A DNA stretch of 33,083 bases, taken from assembly GCA_902801415.1 (NCBI GenBank), contig CADCIK010000017.1, positions 1-33,083 on the forward strand. The letters are read 5' to 3'. The position numbers and the translations under genes are program-made. Position 1 is the stretch's first letter; every line of letters begins with the position of its first letter. The notes below the pieces were generated by a model, which did no database searches, was not told the DNA's origin, and saw nothing but the letters and a program-made list of their open reading frames with translations. This DNA comes from an uncultured Lachnospiraceae bacterium (GTDB taxonomy: Bacteria; Bacillota; Clostridia; Lachnospirales; Lachnospiraceae). Below are positions 5,468 to 30,508 of the stretch, one piece after another.

Positions 5468-6304
5468 TCAGTTCCAAACAGGCACAAAATGGTGATGCGT
5501 GATCCTCTGCTCCTTGGGCGGAAGCTGCATATAGTCCCCATATATTCTTGTCAGGATCTTATCATAGGCCACAGGAATGTAAACTTTGATGTCTTCAAAG
5601 TCGGTCAGCACAAGGTCTTCGATCTCATCCTTGTAATAATAGCTTTTCTCCCAGTTTGCAATATAGGTAGCTTTGTAAAGTCCGGAATCACTTCCGCGGT
5701 ATCTCTGCATGATCTCATCGCGTTCCCGCCGGACCTTTTTAAAACCGCCAAGAAGCCCCGCACTCATCCTCATGGGAAGATTGAACAGCATTTTCATCCT
5801 GCGCTTTGGGGGAAGCGTCCGGTAATAACGCGCGGGAAGCATGTACGTGATCGTACGATTCAGTGCCCTGACTTCTTTATTCTGGGCAGCCCGCTCTGCC
5901 GGATCCTCCGACGTCTTGTCCAGAATAAAAATGTCAACAAAGGGGCCCAGATTGTCGACATCGGGAATGCCTTTCAGTTTGAGCGCCGCGGTCCGTGAAC
6001 ACACTCTGGAAAAATAAAAATAGTAATACGGAGAAGTATCGCCCGACAAAATGTAATACTCGTTCGTCTCTCCGGGCATGATCTCACAGAATTTCTCATA
6101 TGCGTCCCTTGGCATGATAATATCGATATCATCGTCCCACGGGATAAATCCCTTGTGCCTTACTGCGCCGAGCAAGGTGCCGAATGCGACGAAATATGGA
6201 ATATTGTGGCGGCTGCAGATGTCATGGATCGCTGCCAGCACTTTTTTGACCTCTTGCTTGTATTCGTCTGGTGTGAGCGGAACGCCGGTTTGTTTGGAAG
6301 CCAT
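5468..6304 (-). CDS. licD: LicD-family phosphotransferase
   Basis: A 278-residue cytoplasmic enzyme of the LicD family, which moves phosphocholine (or in some members glycerol or ribitol phosphate) from a CDP-activated donor onto a sugar. The LicD signature is complete: FVAFGTLLGAVRHKGFIPW followed by DDDID (Asp57-59 and Asp61), the metal-binding cluster. The start ATG is 2 nt after the flippase stop, with GGAGA inside the end of that gene. Its position in the polysaccharide operon implies that the substrate is the lipid-linked repeat unit or polymer. The CDP-choline donor could come from the licC/licA-type operon at 24.3-28.5 kb; a CDP-glycerol donor from TagD is the main alternative. Confidence 0.92.
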   Translation of the reverse strand: MASKQTGVPLTPDEYKQEVKKVLAAIHDICSRHNIPYFVAFGTLLGAVRHKGFIPWDDDIDIIMPRDAYEKFCEIMPGETNEYYILSGDTSPYYYFYFSRVCSRTAALKLKGIPDVDNLGPFVDIFILDKTSEDPAERAAQNKEVRALNRTITYMLPARYYRTLPPKRRMKMLFNLPMRMSAGLLGGFKKVRRERDEIMQRYRGSDSGLYKATYIANWEKSYYYKDEIEDLVLTDFEDIKVYIPVAYDKILTRIYGDYMQLPPKEQRITHHHFVPVWN

Positions 6305-24280: not shown

Positions 24281-25882
24281 TCATTTTTTACCGATCTCTT
24301 CCAGATAATCTTCCGCGTCACGGATAAAGCTTGCGATGATCAGAATGATGACCAGTCCGATCGGAAAGGCCGCAATGATCGAAACTGTCTGCAGATTGTT
24401 CATAGATCCCTCACTGAAGATCAGCGCAATAGGAAGCATGATCAGAAGGATCGCCCAGAAGAGTTTCATGCGGGTTCCGGCCTCCTGTCCCTCTTTCAGT
24501 TCGCGATAGCTGTATTGGGAGGCAACAAGTGTTATGCCGTCAAAGCTCGTCGCGTAGAACGCGATCATGGACGTGATCAGGACCACCAGCACGATCCGCC
24601 ACATAGGCAGCGTCTGGATCACTGCGATCACAGTCGCGTAAAGATCACCTCCGCACTGTTCAAAAAACCCCAATACATCAAAAGTTCCGTGCATCTGAAG
24701 GCCAAGGCCGTAATTGCCGAGAATGATAAAAGAGATCAGCGTGCTCGCCACACCGAATATATAGGTGCCGAGGATCACCTGCTTCACCGTTCTTCCGCGG
24801 CTGATGCTTCCCATAAAGAAGGGGGACGCCACTGCCCAGACCATCCAGTAAGCCCAGAAGAATATGGTCCAGTTCTGCGGGAAATTGGTCTCCCGCAAAG
24901 GGTCGGTCCAGGTACTGAGCGCGATAAAATTCTGCATCATATTGCCGAGGGCTGAAAATCCGGTCTCAATGATGTACACCGGCTGGCCTCCGAACAGAAG
25001 GATATAGCCCAGCAGTGCGCCGAAAAGCGCCATACAGGCGTTGGCAAGCCAGGATACTCCCTTGATCCCCTTCAGGACTGCGATCGTATAAACCAGGCAG
25101 ATCACGATCAGGATGGCAATTGTCATAAACTTGGATCCGGGAATGCCGAACAAGGTCGTGAGCGCCAGGGATAAGAGAGGCGTCGCAACTGAGAAAGTTG
25201 TAGCTGTGCCTGCGATCAGCGCGATCACAGCCAGAATATCGATCAGCTTTCCCTGCCACTTGTCTGTTTTGGCGCCTAATATTGGCCGGCATGCCTCGCT
25301 GTACTTTTGTTTGGTGCGCTTTCTTACGTGCAGCATAAAGCCGAAGCAGGCTGCGAGCATGGCGTAAAAGCTCCACGGGATATATCCCCAGTGAAAGAGC
25401 GGATAGGTACTGGCCCAGTCCTGGATGGATCCCATCTTCGCGATGTGTTCTTCCTGCGCGTAGGAGATCCACTCGCAAAAGGAATAAAAAAGGATATCCG
25501 CAGCCAGTCCGCATGTAAATACCATGGCGCCCCAGGTAAAGAACTTGTACTGAGGCTTCTCGCCGGGCTTGCCCAGCGTGATCTGTCCGATCGGCGAAAA
25601 GCTCACCCACAGCGAGACGATCAGGACGCCGAGTCCCACGACCAGATAATACGTGCCCATCTCATTGCCCAGAAATCCCCGGATCGCACTGAGCGCACTG
25701 GTGGACTGCTCCGGCTTTATAATAAAGAAAAGACACAGCGCAAAAATTGCCGCAAAGGGATAAATGGTCGTGGCCGGATCGATGAGGCGGCCGGGAGACG
25801 GTTCTTTTCCGCTTTGTCCGTTTCCTGCGCTCTTCTGTAAAGCACGTACCGTATTGCTTCCTGCATTGGATCGTTTACTCAT
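24281..25882 (-). CDS. BCCT-family transporter (choline/betaine/carnitine type)
   Basis: A 533-residue, 12-helix transporter. The signature of the betaine/carnitine/choline family is present: FFWAYWMVWAVASPFFMG followed by SRGRTVKQVILG, and earlier FFTWGAMVFTCGLAADILFY and FHWGYIPWSFYAML blocks with the aromatic residues of the substrate path. It is the last gene of the operon with two LicC-type cytidylyltransferase domains and a choline-kinase-type domain, 26 nt after licC, so choline (or ethanolamine-like or betaine) uptake to feed CDP-choline synthesis is the likely role. In classical lic1 loci the permease is LicB, from a different family, so this is a non-orthologous replacement. GGAG lies 7 nt before the ATG. 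A polar N-terminal tail of about 40 residues precedes the first helix. Confidence 0.9.
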   Translation of the reverse strand: MSKRSNAGSNTVRALQKSAGNGQSGKEPSPGRLIDPATTIYPFAAIFALCLFFIIKPEQSTSALSAIRGFLGNEMGTYYLVVGLGVLIVSLWVSFSPIGQITLGKPGEKPQYKFFTWGAMVFTCGLAADILFYSFCEWISYAQEEHIAKMGSIQDWASTYPLFHWGYIPWSFYAMLAACFGFMLHVRKRTKQKYSEACRPILGAKTDKWQGKLIDILAVIALIAGTATTFSVATPLLSLALTTLFGIPGSKFMTIAILIVICLVYTIAVLKGIKGVSWLANACMALFGALLGYILLFGGQPVYIIETGFSALGNMMQNFIALSTWTDPLRETNFPQNWTIFFWAYWMVWAVASPFFMGSISRGRTVKQVILGTYIFGVASTLISFIILGNYGLGLQMHGTFDVLGFFEQCGGDLYATVIAVIQTLPMWRIVLVVLITSMIAFYATSFDGITLVASQYSYRELKEGQEAGTRMKLFWAILLIMLPIALIFSEGSMNNLQTVSIIAAFPIGLVIILIIASFIRDAEDYLEEIGKK

Positions 25883-25908: not shown

Positions 25909-26616
25909 TTAAATATCGGCATAGGTCGGGTCCGCAGCGATCAGTTCTTCAAGACTGTCGATCTCTATGATGTCCTCTGCCCGCATAGGGCGGATGCCAA
26001 GTGTATATTCCTCCGGATGACAGAACATAGCTACGTCGTCCCAGTAGATCTGCCGGTTCTTTTTAACATCAAATTCCAGTTCCAGATGCTTTTTCAATTT
26101 CGCGCCGTCTTCCGCTGACCACCGGCTGATGCTGTAGAGCTGCCAGCCGCGGCTTCCTCCCGTCCTGGAGCAACCCGTCACGATCCCGTTCTCCACGGTC
26201 ATGAGCCATTCCGTCGTCTCTTCGTCAGTCCACACCGCATTGTAACCGGACCGCTCAAATTCCGGCGCCAGGATAGAGGGATCATAGATGATCTGGTCTC
26301 CGTCCAGGATCATGCAGTCTTCCAGATGGTCTCTGACCGCATACAGTGAGGAAATGTTATTGCAGGTCTCATAGTATGGATTTTCGATCAGCTCTACCCC
26401 CGGATAAAGGATCTTCAATTCCTCAAACTGTTCCTTGAGATGACCGACTACAATATAGATCTCCAAGATCCCGTTGGCTCGCAGCCCTTCTATAACAGAA
26501 TCGATCATACGCCTTCCATTTACACGGATCAGCGGTTTGGGAACCTTCTCCGTGAGCGGATGCATCCGCTCTCCTTTTCCGGCCGCCATGATGATCGCTC
26601 TCACTGCCTTATGCAT
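25909..26616 (-). CDS. licC: LicC-like phosphocholine cytidylyltransferase
   Basis: A 235-residue nucleotidyltransferase. The NTP-binding signature AIIMAAGKGERMHPLTEKVP is followed by KPLIRVNGRRMIDSVIE, and LicC-like blocks include NPYYETCNNISSLYAV, ILDGDQIIYDPSIL (metal aspartates) and IYWDDVAMF, ending in IEIDSLEELIAAD. It resembles pneumococcal LicC in length and block order; that enzyme makes CDP-choline from CTP and phosphocholine. Its start overlaps the end of the upstream fusion gene by 8 nt, so the two are co-translated. It is the second cytidylyltransferase of the operon, because the fusion protein already has one. Confidence 0.88.
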   Translation of the reverse strand: MHKAVRAIIMAAGKGERMHPLTEKVPKPLIRVNGRRMIDSVIEGLRANGILEIYIVVGHLKEQFEELKILYPGVELIENPYYETCNNISSLYAVRDHLEDCMILDGDQIIYDPSILAPEFERSGYNAVWTDEETTEWLMTVENGIVTGCSRTGGSRGWQLYSISRWSAEDGAKLKKHLELEFDVKKNRQIYWDDVAMFCHPEEYTLGIRPMRAEDIIEIDSLEELIAADPTYADI

Positions 26617-28456
26617 TCCTGTCTTCCTCCATTTCGCGTATCATTTCTGCCGCATAGCGGTAATAGTCCTTAGCATAGCGGTACTGCCGCAATGAGTATT
26701 CACCGAATTCCACGCCGAGGAGCAGCTTGTACTCACACCAGTTGCTCCACAGAAGACCGCAGGCCGCGATATAGGCGTAGATCTTAGCCACTGTTATCGC
26801 CGGCACACCGGCGGGCGCGTCAGGAACATCCGGATTCCCATTACCCCTCATCTCTTTGTTACATTCATCCAGCTCGGCTCTATCTGTGTCAAAATACAGC
26901 CCGATCAGCCGGTCCACTCTGCTCTTGTCATAAAGGCTGTAGATACAGAACATGGCGATATCCACATGCGGATCCTGCATGCCCGCGTATTCCCAGTCCG
27001 TCAGCTGCAGCTGCTCTTTTCCGTCCGCGCCTTTATAAAACAGGAAATTGTCCGGTACAGCGTCGATGTGCGTCAATACTTTGGCACCCGCATATCTGTC
27101 GATAAAAGGTTTCAGGGAGAGCACTCTCTCTTTGGTCCTCCTGTAATCTCTGTAAACCGAAGGCTGGCCGTTCCGCAGTCCCTCGTAGAACTCGATCTGA
27201 CCGAATATGTCAAAATCATGCCCGACCTCGATCTTCATCCCGTGGAAGCTGCGGAGCCTTTTCATACACCGCTTCAGGTCATCCACGGATTCCGCGTCGC
27301 AGACGCGCACGCCTTCCAGATAGCGCGTGATCTTATAGCCTGTCACCGGATCTATGTAGACGGGATCATCACAGAGCCCTTTACCGGAGATCGCGCGGTA
27401 TACGTCTGCCTCTTTTGCGCGGTCGATCAGCTTGTCCGTCCCCTCTCCGGGCACGCGCATGATGTACTTGCCGCCGCGGCAGGTAAACAGGAAAGAGCGG
27501 TTGGTCATGCCCTTCTTGAGCACTTCGATCTCCCTGATCTCCTCGACGCCGCAGGAAAAAACCCGCGCGATCACATCCATCACTTCGGAGCGGAGCTGGC
27601 TGGATCCTCTGTCCAGTTCACGAAGCTGCTCATAGGTATTGATCTCTACTGCCTCTCCTGCCGGCACTGTTTTGGCCGGGACGATCATCTTCCCTCTCTC
27701 GTAGAGAGCCTCTTCCCAGAAAGCGCCGTCCTTTCCGAAAGTTCCGCAGAGCGCGCGGATCCGCTCGCGCACGACTGCAGCGTCTTCCCCCTGCAGATAG
27801 GCGATGCCGATCATAGCGTTTCCGGATGTACCGGCCGCTACCAGCTCCCGCTTCCGGTTTACACGGACGTCGCTGTCCGGATCCTCTCTGTCACTGACCA
27901 TATACCAGGAGTAGAGCTCGCGGCTGCTGAAAGGATTGGCCGCGCACCAGATATCACAGGGGACAATATAGGCGTTGTCGATATGGTCCAGTACCAGTTT
28001 CATGGAGTAGAGATTGTTCCTGGACGCGTAATCCCGGTTGATGACCAGCTGCACGCCGTACTCATCGATCAGGTAGTCGAACTTCTCTTTCATGAAGCCG
28101 GCGACCACATAGATCTCATAAATGCCCGCCTCGTGGAGCTGGCAGATCTGCCGCTCGATCAGGGTCTGCCCGTTTACCTCCAGGAGCGCCTTGGGCGACT
28201 CCAGGTTGATGGGCACCATCCGCATGCCGAATCCCGCTGCCAGAATGACCGCCCTGCGCGGTCTTCTCTTCTCTCCCAGCTCTATGGCCTTGTCAGTCAG
28301 CTGCATCGCGTCATTCAGATATCCCGCTTTGGCAAGATTTCTCAGCGACCTGTTGACAACGCCCAGTGAATGCCCCGACTCCTCTGCGAGGATCCGCTGG
28401 CTCACAAAGGGCTTGTCCATTAATACTTTCATAATATCTAATTCTTGAATGTTCAC
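26609..28456 (-). CDS. Fusion: winged HTH + LicC-like cytidylyltransferase + LicA-like choline kinase
   Basis: A 615-residue three-domain protein. Residues 1-60 form a winged-helix domain (LDIMKVLMDKPFVSQRILAE, then VVNRSLRNLAKAGYL as the recognition helix region). Residues about 68-285 form a nucleotidyltransferase with AVILAAGFGMRM, SPKALLEVNG, NRDYASRNNLYSM and CDIW in the place of the metal aspartate. Residues about 295-610 form a choline/ethanolamine kinase-type phosphotransferase with VLTHIDAVPDNF (His463, Asp465, Asn470) and LTDWEYAG (Asp487, Glu489). The start is GTG at 28454-28456, 5 nt after GGAGG; an in-frame TTG four codons earlier overlaps that site. Together it could convert choline to CDP-choline and sense the pathway. 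The order HTH, nucleotidyltransferase, kinase parallels NadR. Substrate is inferred from family and neighbours. Confidence 0.9.
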   Translation of the reverse strand: MNIQELDIMKVLMDKPFVSQRILAEESGHSLGVVNRSLRNLAKAGYLNDAMQLTDKAIELGEKRRPRRAVILAAGFGMRMVPINLESPKALLEVNGQTLIERQICQLHEAGIYEIYVVAGFMKEKFDYLIDEYGVQLVINRDYASRNNLYSMKLVLDHIDNAYIVPCDIWCAANPFSSRELYSWYMVSDREDPDSDVRVNRKRELVAAGTSGNAMIGIAYLQGEDAAVVRERIRALCGTFGKDGAFWEEALYERGKMIVPAKTVPAGEAVEINTYEQLRELDRGSSQLRSEVMDVIARVFSCGVEEIREIEVLKKGMTNRSFLFTCRGGKYIMRVPGEGTDKLIDRAKEADVYRAISGKGLCDDPVYIDPVTGYKITRYLEGVRVCDAESVDDLKRCMKRLRSFHGMKIEVGHDFDIFGQIEFYEGLRNGQPSVYRDYRRTKERVLSLKPFIDRYAGAKVLTHIDAVPDNFLFYKGADGKEQLQLTDWEYAGMQDPHVDIAMFCIYSLYDKSRVDRLIGLYFDTDRAELDECNKEMRGNGNPDVPDAPAGVPAITVAKIYAYIAACGLLWSNWCEYKLLLGVEFGEYSLRQYRYAKDYYRYAAEMIREMEEDRNA

Positions 28457-28493
28457 GAACACCTCCAATTCGCATTTTGGTGAACTTTATACA

Positions 28494-28522
28494 ATAATAA
28501 GACAGAGCTTCAGCTCTGTCAA
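28494..28522 (-). promoter_or_regulatory. Strong promoter of the lic operon with a 20-nt palindromic operator
   Basis: Minus strand TTGACA (28517-28522, consensus), 17-nt spacer, TATTAT (28494-28499). A perfect inverted repeat, GACAGAGCT-TC-AGCTCTGTC (28501-28520), fills the spacer and part of the -35 box. The layout is that of a repressor operator. Candidate binders are the HTH domain of the operon's own first protein or an unlinked regulator. Confidence 0.75.
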
Positions 28523-28534
28523 GTTTACTATGTG

Positions 28535-28597
28535 TTGACAACGCCCTTCCGTCGTGCTATTGTAATATTGTATTAAGTATCTAATACAGTATTACAA
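28535..28597 (+). promoter_or_regulatory. Promoter and long inverted-repeat operator of the GntR-ABC operon
   Basis: Plus strand TTGACA (28535-28540), 17-nt spacer, TATTGT (28558-28563) with a TG one base upstream (extended -10). A 16-bp inverted repeat with one mismatch (28560-28575 and 28582-28597, 6-nt centre) overlaps the -10 and the start point. Its inner part reads TGTATTA...TAATACA. This is the expected position for autorepression by the YtrA-type GntR protein encoded just downstream. Confidence 0.7.
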
Positions 28598-28633: not shown

Positions 28634-29014
28634 ATGGGATGGAATTTTAATGACAATACTCCCATTTATCTGCAGATCATAAACGGTCTGCAGAGAGAGA
28701 TCGCAAGCGGTGCGTATCCGCCGGGTTCGCGGCTTGCGTCCGTCCGCGAACTTGCATTGGAAGCGGGCGTCAACCCCAACACGATGCAGCGGGCACTGGC
28801 AGAGCTTGAACGACAGGGACTTGTCAACAGCCAGCGCACTGCCGGACGATTTGTAACAGAAGATACAGCCGCGCTTTCAGCGCTGCGCAGATCTATGAGC
28901 GATGAGATCATCGCAGATTTTTTCCGCAGCATGCAAAGCCTCGGCCTTAGTAATGAAGAGATCCTTTCCCTTGTACAGGACTGGGTCCTTGAACACAGTA
29001 AGGAGGAACACTGA
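28634..29014 (+). CDS. GntR-family repressor, YtrA subfamily
   Basis: A 126-residue regulator with the winged-helix domain of GntR proteins (residues about 10-76): PIYLQIINGLQREIASGAYP, PGSRLASVRELALEAGVNPN and TMQRALAELERQGLV. Only a short helical C-terminal part follows (about 50 residues), as in the YtrA subfamily, which has no separate ligand domain and usually controls a linked ABC transporter. GGAGG lies 6 nt before the ATG. It is the first gene of a three-gene operon, ending one base before the ATPase start, and an inverted repeat covers its promoter. In Bacillus subtilis the YtrA operon responds to lipid II-targeting antibiotics; the trigger here is unknown. Confidence 0.94.
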   Translation: MGWNFNDNTPIYLQIINGLQREIASGAYPPGSRLASVRELALEAGVNPNTMQRALAELERQGLVNSQRTAGRFVTEDTAALSALRRSMSDEIIADFFRSMQSLGLSNEEILSLVQDWVLEHSKEEH

Positions 29015-29015
29015 T

Positions 29016-29720
29016 ATGAGTATGCTGGAATGCACCGCTCTTTCCAAGAATTACGGAAGCGTAGAGGCTCTTCGTTCGATCGACCTCACGCTGGAAAGCG
29101 GAAGGATCGTCGGACTTGTAGGGCCCAACGGGAGCGGGAAGACAACGCTGATCAAGCTGGCGCAGCACCTGCTCACCCCCACATCCGGCATGATCACGAT
29201 CGACGGCATGATCCCCGGACCTCAGACGAAAGCGATCGTCTCCTATCTTCCGGACCGCGATTTTCTCCCGCAGTGGATGAATCTGGACGAACTGATGACC
29301 TTCTACCACGATTTCTTTCCGGACTTTAACCCTGCGAAAGCGGCAGACATGCTCGACACGCTCGGCGTATCAGGGAGACAGCCTTTGGGAAAGATGTCCA
29401 AGGGCACACGGGAAAAGGTCCAGCTTATCTTCACTATGAGCCGGGAGGCCAAGGTGTATCTTCTGGATGAGCCGATCGCAGGCGTGGATCCGGCGACGAG
29501 AGACTATATACTGCGGACGATCCTCTCCAATTATTCGGAGAACGCGCTGGTCCTGATCTCCACACACCTGATCACGGATGTGGAGCCCATCCTCGACGAA
29601 GTCGTCTTTTTGCAGAAGGGAACGATTGAACTGCACGAAAATGCCGATGCCCTGCGCGAGAGAACAGGCAAGAGCATCGACGGATATTTCCGGGAGGTAT
29701 ACAGATGCTGGGGAAATTGA
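29016..29720 (+). CDS. ABC transporter ATP-binding protein
   Basis: A 234-residue ATPase of the EcsA/BcrA type. Walker A GPNGSGKTT (residues 36-44), a degenerate signature KMSKGTREK (126-134, in place of LSGGQ), Walker B VYLLDEP (147-153), D-loop GVDPATRD and the H-loop histidine in ISTHLITD (His184). The start is ATG 29016-29018, directly after the gntR stop, with AGGAGG 9 nt upstream; a longer reading frame upstream only overlaps gntR. The last 16 nt overlap the permease gene. With the YtrA-type repressor it probably forms a small export or resistance system. Confidence 0.95.
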   Translation: MSMLECTALSKNYGSVEALRSIDLTLESGRIVGLVGPNGSGKTTLIKLAQHLLTPTSGMITIDGMIPGPQTKAIVSYLPDRDFLPQWMNLDELMTFYHDFFPDFNPAKAADMLDTLGVSGRQPLGKMSKGTREKVQLIFTMSREAKVYLLDEPIAGVDPATRDYILRTILSNYSENALVLISTHLITDVEPILDEVVFLQKGTIELHENADALRERTGKSIDGYFREVYRCWGN

Positions 29721-30508
29721 TCGGATATGAAACTAAGGCTTTCGGGCGCATTATGGTGCCCCTCTATATTGCTATGCTTGCCTTCGCCCTCTTCACGGGC
29801 CTGAGCATCCGCTTTGTTCCGGAGGATATCATGCAGGGACTTCCGGGCGTTCTGATCGGTATGCTCTACGGCGTCCTGATGATGGCGATCATCATCATGA
29901 CCTGCGTGCTCTCTGTCACGCGCTTCTACAAGAATCTTCTCGGGCAGGAAGGTTATCTGATGTTCTCCCTGCCCACAGACACTGCGACACTGATCGTCTC
30001 CAAGGTCATCAGTGTTTTGATCTGGACCGGCTTCAGCACGATCGTCGCATTTATGGCCATAGCGCTCTCAGCGCTCGGCGCGGGCGGCATCGAGGCCTTC
30101 AGGGAACTGCTGCACTTTTTCAGGCATCCTGAGATCCTGCAGCACCTGAGTCAGATCTCCGGTGTGCTCATACTCACCGTTTTGATGATCATCGCGGGAA
30201 CAGCCGCTTCCATAGTCCGCATCTACGCCGGCATCGCGATCGGCCATCAGTTCAATGATCACCGGATCCTGTTCAGTATCGTCGCGCTGATCGCTTTCAA
30301 TATCATCGGGACGATCTGGTCCACGCTGCTCAGCACCTTTGGCTTTTATACCGGTGTGTTTGAATCCTTATCCCGCATTTTCGAAGCGGATACCGTGCAG
30401 GGCATCTGCATCGCTCAGACGGGCATGATCGGAGTTCTCCTCTTCCAGGTGGCCCTGTTCGGCATCCTTACATGGGTACTGCTGGACCGCAGGCTGAATC
30501 TTGAATGA
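29705..30508 (+). CDS. ABC transporter permease subunit
   Basis: A 267-residue membrane protein with about six helices (near residues 18-38, 50-72, 100-125, 155-178, 195-215 and 240-260). It starts inside the ATPase gene (16-nt overlap) with GGAGG 7 nt before the ATG and is the last gene of the operon. The sequence has no motif that reveals a substrate; the block RFYKNLLGQEGYLMFSLP, between helices two and three, recurs in permeases paired with YtrA-type GntR regulators. Function as an antimicrobial or lipid exporter is inference. Confidence 0.9.
   Translation: MLGKLIGYETKAFGRIMVPLYIAMLAFALFTGLSIRFVPEDIMQGLPGVLIGMLYGVLMMAIIIMTCVLSVTRFYKNLLGQEGYLMFSLPTDTATLIVSKVISVLIWTGFSTIVAFMAIALSALGAGGIEAFRELLHFFRHPEILQHLSQISGVLILTVLMIIAGTAASIVRIYAGIAIGHQFNDHRILFSIVALIAFNIIGTIWSTLLSTFGFYTGVFESLSRIFEADTVQGICIAQTGMIGVLLFQVALFGILTWVLLDRRLNLE

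Follow-up and report, generated by a model that had tools for sequence, protein, structure and literature searches.

A 615-residue protein encoded in a 33,083-nucleotide stretch of DNA from an uncultured Lachnospiraceae bacterium (the window; contig CADCIK010000017.1 of GenBank assembly GCA_902801415.1) is probably both a choline kinase and the repressor of its own operon, and its middle domain may have become a sensor. In this chain a winged-helix domain of the helix-turn-helix (HTH) class precedes a LicC-like nucleotidyltransferase and a LicA-like choline kinase. The domains, the predicted fold, the conservation of a promoter site, the link between this site and the HTH type, the gene order, the changes in the substrate pocket and the pathway partners were computed.

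Domain structure of the fused protein

The fused gene and its domains were located as follows.

26609 to 28456, minus strand: fused gene, HTH, LicC-like nucleotidyltransferase and LicA-like choline kinase, 615 aa, GTG start
28259 to 28456, minus strand: MarR-type winged-helix DNA-binding domain, residues 1-66, with Q20, R21 and G32 invariant in the alignments made
27590 to 28255, minus strand: LicC-like nucleotidyltransferase, about residues 68-289, with metal residues D168 and E271 kept and the substrate pocket altered
26612 to 27535, minus strand: choline kinase domain, about residues 308-615, with the LicA catalytic residues and the four-aromatic choline cage kept

An earlier note on this DNA had read a winged helix, a LicC-like and a LicA-like domain in a single chain of 615 residues, and this was confirmed by profile matches, alignments and the predicted fold. 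The N-terminal part matched HTH_24 above the Pfam cut-off, and its predicted model was a winged helix that matched winged-helix structures, in agreement with the earlier reading. A weak match of the same part to the NCBIfam family MarR_EPS (TIGR04176) reached 22.7 bits, below the curated cut-off of 88 bits. The likeness to NadR, also drawn in the note, held for the layout (HTH, nucleotidyltransferase, kinase) but not for the families: no NadR-type family was found in Pfam (all 13 families matched) or among the best 25 of 40 NCBIfam matches of the fused protein, and families of the NTP_transf_3 type and of the choline kinase/APH type were matched there instead.

The kinase residues were mapped by hand in 64 fused sequences. 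D465 and T318 (catalytic D176 and T29 of LicA) as well as the cage residues Y490, W570, W573 and Y587 (Y197, W251, W254 and Y268 of LicA) were invariant, and the position of LicA E213 was occupied by an equally invariant tyrosine, Y506, in place of the charged residue. The LicA catalytic residues, the choline cage and the charge contact of E213 with choline are taken from the available part of PMC4364537.

A conserved site in the promoters of the fused gene

A total of 109 near-full-length genes were extracted, and 106 of them had non-redundant upstream DNA. Of these 106 promoters 94, that of the window among them, were from close members (about 50-100% identity) and 12 were from distant members (about 35-37%). 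The promoter region of the window contained the following elements.

28451 to 28485, minus strand: spaced predicted operator GTTCA-N25-TGAAC, beginning near the inferred transcription start and reaching the start codon
28450 to 28461, minus strand: compact palindromic predicted operator TGTTCGTGAACA, a perfect palindrome that contains the GTG start codon (28456-28454)
28475 to 28486, minus strand: upstream predicted operator copy AGTTCACCAAAA, with 2 mismatches to TGTTCRYGAAMA
28494 to 28522, minus strand: sigma-70-like promoter, -35 TTGACA at 28522-28517, 17-bp spacer and -10 TATTAT at 28499-28494 (consensus by eye)
28501 to 28520, no strand assigned: palindrome GACAGAGCTGAAGCTCTGTC named in the earlier note, perfect, with 9-bp arms, between -35 and -10

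Because the -10 box ends at 28494, the spaced site begins near the inferred transcription start. A promoter qualified, under a single rule for all, if it held GTTC[AG]-N24/25-[CT]GAAC or matched TGTTCRYGAAMA at 11 or more of its 12 positions. By this rule the site was present in 86 of the 94 close and 11 of the 12 distant promoters, compared with 0.82 and 0.14 in mononucleotide shuffles, so that together 97 of the 106 promoters carried the predicted operator. Under a dinucleotide-preserving control, a score of at least 11 was found in 53 of the 94 close 150-bp upstream regions, against 0.55 in the control. The best match to TGTTCRYGAAMA lay at -30/-29 in 68 of the 94 close promoters, and a second copy was often seen around the start codon (GTTC-ATG-AAC; column counts). 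The gap between the half-sites of the close group was 24 in 35/94, 25 in 21/94 and 0 in 24/94. The gaps of 24 and 25 were the same as those of the distant group, in which GTTCA-N24-TGAAC was present in 11/12 promoters (N25 once) and the left half-site stood directly 3' of a -10-like hexamer (by eye).

The site was also largely confined to these promoters. Within 1.277 Mb around the 109 genes (a few of them redundant), promoters of the fused gene accounted for 49 occurrences of the strict spaced motif and other places for 2; the compact site was seen once outside these promoters, and the reversed-pattern control gave 0. One of the 2 was a second spaced site of Lactobacillus delbrueckii (locus L040), located 56 bp before the gene of a betaine/carnitine/choline transporter (BCCT), about 2.7 kb after the start of the fused gene; it is likely a second regulated promoter.

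That the fused protein itself may bind the site is best supported by the co-occurrence of the site with its HTH type. A control set of 20 further homologue regions was used, with HTH classes judged by eye. The spaced site was detected in 7 of the 10 homologues with the same HTH type (QR in the second helix, SLGxxN in the third helix), in 0/6 homologues without HTH and in 0/4 with another HTH. The difference, 7/10 against 0/10, gave a Fisher p of 0.003, with several of the seven belonging to the distant type and therefore not fully independent. Self-regulation, as the earlier note had proposed it, thus received strong comparative support from a conserved site that tracks the HTH type, but the operator proposed there, the palindrome GACAGAGCTGAAGCTCTGTC, was not the conserved one. 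That palindrome was shared, in part, only by the nearest relative, which kept 15 of its 20 bases; elsewhere it was at shuffle level (104 of 105 non-redundant promoters beside that of the window), and it was rejected as the main operator. In several homologues other, unrelated palindromes were seen at about -60 to -70 (near -65), with no common sequence noticed, and some of them may be terminators of upstream genes.

The substrate pocket of the middle domain

The earlier note had pointed to CDIW, at the usual position of the metal aspartate in the middle domain, as a possible sign of altered specificity. In LicC, D107 is a metal-binding residue. Since the LicC metal residues were kept, CDIW does contain the metal aspartate; this residue was retained in 94/94 close and 12/12 distant members, and the metal glutamate in 92/94 and 11/12. 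Residues A74, G75, G77, R79, K89 and D168, which belong to the CTP and metal sites, were invariant in 64 fused sequences. An altered pocket was found at other positions: four of them differed from LicC in 94/94 close fused domains, with D105 changed to P, W136 deleted, Y190 changed to F and D192 changed to E. According to the available part of PMC6697681, E216 of LicC is a metal residue and D105 and D192 are substrate-end residues; W136 and Y190 were placed by our own assignment in the LicC aromatic box, which is taken from the same partial source.

The adjoining second LicC of the window (LicC2) had D105, D107, W136, Y190, W191, D192 and E216 all present, and across loci LicC2 kept D105 in 51/73, W136 in 72/73 and D192 in 54/73. 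In the distant members W136 and Y190 of the fused domain were kept in 12/12, while D105 and D192 were not. Another LicC was sought in 17 close-type genomes, 11 in which no separate adjoining LicC2 had been found and 6 with one, and 17/17 held a further LicC-like match with an E value of 1e-24 or below. In the distant-type genomes the fused gene was the best LicC match in 12/12, and no other match reached E 1e-14. With no comparable second LicC, and with W136 and Y190 kept, the fused transferase of the distant branch is by these sequence features probably a working cytidylyltransferase. For the close-type middle domain there is doubt about the suggestion of the earlier note that CDP-choline is made by the chain itself, given the four pocket changes in 94/94 and the intact LicC adjoining.

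Operon, choline pathway and family

The other genes assigned to the operon and the pathway in the window were as follows.

25909 to 26616, minus strand: LicC2, 235 aa, with the LicC pocket residues present, sharing 8 bp with the 3' end of the fused gene
24281 to 25882, minus strand: BCCT, third operon gene (E 1.1e-123)
5468 to 6304, minus strand: LicD-family phosphotransferase in the capsule-type cluster of the window (E 5.2e-42)

The order was fused gene, LicC2 and, after a gap of 26 bp, BCCT. The genome of the bacterium had 4 LicD matches. Choline_bind_1 repeats were matched 25 times in it, over about 11 frames, and in 0/14 control genomes. As predicted from sequence, the Lic-1 set was complete in this genome (choline-type transporter, kinase, cytidylyltransferase and LicD). 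The assignment to a choline pathway made in the note was thus backed by gene context (BCCT, LicC2, LicD and choline-binding repeats), and the presence of LicD and of the repeats makes surface phosphocholine decoration the likely purpose.

Relatives were widespread. They were collected by a scan of genome contigs, from which the best 80 of 449 stretches were kept; by record titles these 80 were mostly from Firmicutes, while a few came from Coriobacteria and a single one was labelled as a gamma proteobacterium. Among 200 genomes of the family, 120 had some match, often a partial one; of the 61 genomes in the genus listing, this one counted, 17 had a match at E 1e-60. The carriers of the gene were read by eye from the match lists, with one weak LicD match scored as present. 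Of the 35 family genomes that carry the fused gene at full length, that of this bacterium among them, 31 had LicD, as did 98 of the 165 others (Fisher p 0.0008); when three split-match genomes were counted as carriers, the figures were 34/38 and 95/162 (p 0.0003).

Downstream of the fused gene, 97 close loci were surveyed, of which 33 end within 3.5 kb and 64 remain. In these 64, a codirectional relative of BCCT was present in 56, an EamA-type transporter in 7 and neither in 1, and LicC2 also adjoined the fused gene in 52. The transporter clusters were identified by BLAST to the BCCT of the window and one EamA protein, these two being the ones tested by Pfam. Among 10 distant-type loci with wide flanks, 8 (L170, L171, L172 and L174-L178) had at least one Pfam-confirmed choline-binding protein nearby; the single protein tested by Pfam at L179 is no choline-binding protein, and none was tested at L173.

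A single in-frame fusion of HTH, transferase, kinase and second LicC, 834 aa in length, was encoded at L038:7995-10496 (plus strand), unless this is an assembly error. The LicC2 of L014, L040 and L062 had a C-terminal extension which by eye resembled the first strands of choline kinase, as if it were the remnant of an older LicC-LicA fusion. In L158, L159, L164, L165 and L167, relatives with a different HTH, or with HTH and transferase but without kinase (two in tandem in L167), were observed, which by their domain make-up may point to a wider set of HTH-nucleotidyltransferase proteins. Genes for MTTB (trimethylamine-methyltransferase), a corrinoid protein and RACo each turned up close to the fused gene in a small number of loci (L031:6709-8163, L076:11318-11986 and L056:6420-7940; one protein of each was checked), hinting at a link with quaternary amine breakdown. 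In the window, a divergent GntR-type regulator, an ABC ATPase gene and a third frame were located at 28634-30508 (plus strand). The intergenic region shared with these divergent genes had the inverted repeat TGTATTAGATACTTAATACA at 28569-28588, and a near-identical repeat was present in the nearest relative, L004.

Discussion

The conserved site in front of the gene suggests that the enzyme may switch its own choline-uptake operon on and off; DNA binding, the sign of regulation, the enzyme activities and the ligand are what we infer. In the proposed mechanism the N-terminal winged helix would bind the GTTCA-N24/25-TGAAC site (28451-28485 in the window), and the bound protein would block transcription of the fused gene, licC2 and the BCCT gene. 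With its half-sites 29-30 bp apart, the site would call for a long dimer whose winged helices lie far from each other. Repression is implied because the site spans about the transcription start to the start codon. BCCT would import choline, the C-terminal LicA-type domain would phosphorylate it, and the separate LicC2 would be the main maker of CDP-choline. Phosphocholine would then be placed on surface glycans by a LicD enzyme, and choline-binding proteins would attach there. The middle domain would most likely read a pathway ligand (CTP, phosphocholine or CDP-choline) and set the affinity for DNA. Product feedback by CDP-choline, by analogy with NAD for NadR, is our preferred signal, with low confidence. 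A wider proposal is put forward tentatively, as one possibility: an enzyme-repressor family for surface choline decoration that has undergone an evolutionary switch. In the distant branch no LicC-type enzyme was found in the genome beside the fused transferase, and in the other branch a second LicC would have taken over catalysis, with the fused pocket rebuilt as a ligand sensor controlling the winged helix.

Several observations weigh against autorepression with a sensor domain. Kinases such as Rio2 have winged helices too, so the winged-helix fold alone proves nothing. The strict motif was failed by 8/94 close and 1/12 distant promoters, several of these misses having near copies (by eye), and 3/10 control homologues with a similar HTH had no site. 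The genome of the bacterium showed no excess of the spaced motif (8 places, that of the window included, against 10 for the reversed control), and none of the 4 regions examined had a site shortly before its choline-binding-repeat frames; as the spaced pattern is not enriched genome-wide, any regulon would be small. A third LicC-like gene of this genome (contig C9, L113:4003-4766) was preceded by a perfect TGTTCATGAACA, but this site was absent before 8/8 readable of 11 orthologues, including one at 93% identity, and one of the 8 had a TGTTCA half; from this comparison the site before the C9 gene is probably due to chance. As for the sensor role of the middle domain, the residue changes and the second LicC are the two sequence features that would suggest it, and in 3 of the 17 close-type genomes the second LicC-like match was a frame of about 600 aa, in L038 the same frame as the fused protein. 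Other genomic sites were considered as members of a wider regulon and rejected: the perfect sites in C6 and C28 sit inside unrelated frames, and a site in C30, one base short of the full palindrome, is also inside a frame.

A different reading of the chain, somewhat unlikely on balance, takes it as a true trifunctional enzyme-regulator, whose middle domain also makes CDP-choline or another CDP-alcohol, with LicC2 as a paralogue of other substrate or role. The conserved CTP and metal residues (invariant in 64 sequences, and the E216 equivalent in 92/94) favor it, as do the 12/12 distant-type genomes that lack a comparable second LicC and whose fused domain keeps W136 and Y190, but the four pocket positions are changed in 94/94 close members while LicC2 of the window has the LicC residue at all four.

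The conserved site itself might also be explained otherwise. It could be bound by another regulator, the fused winged helix being merely structural as in some non-regulatory enzymes, e.g. Rio2 kinase, and the gene of another regulator, the divergent GntR-type one, is close by in the window; this is improbable, because the site follows the fused HTH type (7/10 vs 0/10) across about 31-100% protein identity, and the GntR neighbour was clustered in just 5/109 loci. A role of the palindrome at 28501-28520 as operator for the fused protein is very improbable: the palindrome, with its 9-bp arms, lies exactly between -35 and -10 and 15/20 bases are kept in the nearest relative, but it did not exceed the shuffle level in the other 104 non-redundant promoters. 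The slightest probability was given to an RNA or translation-start element, such as a hairpin over the ribosome site. In the close group the site mostly covers the ribosome-binding region and the start codon, which would suit such an element, but in the distant group it is wholly upstream of the coding start (-199 to -26). As its left half directly follows a -10-like hexamer, the distant site would be at most partly transcribed and should act as DNA, and the hairpin was rejected on this position. The LexA box was also considered for the site, but its half-sites point the other way.

Enzyme-repressors are already known, and NadR is the nearest in layout, with different domain families. NadR has an N-terminal HTH, and in NadR of Salmonella and E. 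coli the DNA-binding domain, nucleotidyltransferase and kinase follow in the same order as here. All three families differ, since an HTH_24 winged helix, a MobA/LicC-type transferase and a choline-kinase/APH domain are found in the fused protein; the substrate would be choline, not NAD, and the predicted site is mainly at its own operon. The logic of the proposed model matches that of NadR, which is described in the available part of PMC7221760 as a salvage enzyme repressing the genes of its own pathway. The kinase and cytidylyltransferase domains are homologous to those of the Lic-1 enzymes (LicA, LicC, LicB and LicD) of pneumococcus and Haemophilus, and the remaining parts of the pathway, as in Lic-1, are LicD, a transporter and choline-binding repeats. 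Unlike in Lic-1, there is a fusion to an HTH, two LicC-type domains and a self-regulation site, and most loci have BCCT rather than an EamA-type (LicB-like) transporter. The LicCA fusion of Treponema joins LicC and LicA in one chain and is not known to carry an N-terminal HTH. The winged-helix fold is shared with MarR-type regulators, including MarR_EPS TIGR04176, and here it is fused to two enzyme domains. The transferase fold is the same as that of PntC, the aminoethylphosphonate cytidylyltransferase (6pd1/6pd2), and Tde-PntC, according to the available part of PMC6697681, has Glu at the LicC D192 position like the fused middle domain. The fused domain differs from PntC in having Pro, not Glu, at D105 and in its choline context instead of phosphonate genes. 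No description of the HTH-LicC-LicA fusion or of its site was found in the titles and abstract openings of the open-licence literature searched.

If the proposed model is true, a single enzyme-repressor would control choline uptake and phosphocholine surface decoration in many gut and rumen bacteria, as a choline counterpart of NadR; its relatives include records titled Lachnospiraceae, Faecalibacterium, Ruminococcus, Lactobacillus delbrueckii and Streptococcus porci. The contrast between genomes with one and with two LicC-type domains could reveal how an enzyme domain becomes a sensor. Choline use by gut bacteria competes with the host and with trimethylamine producers, and for this reason its control would be of practical interest.

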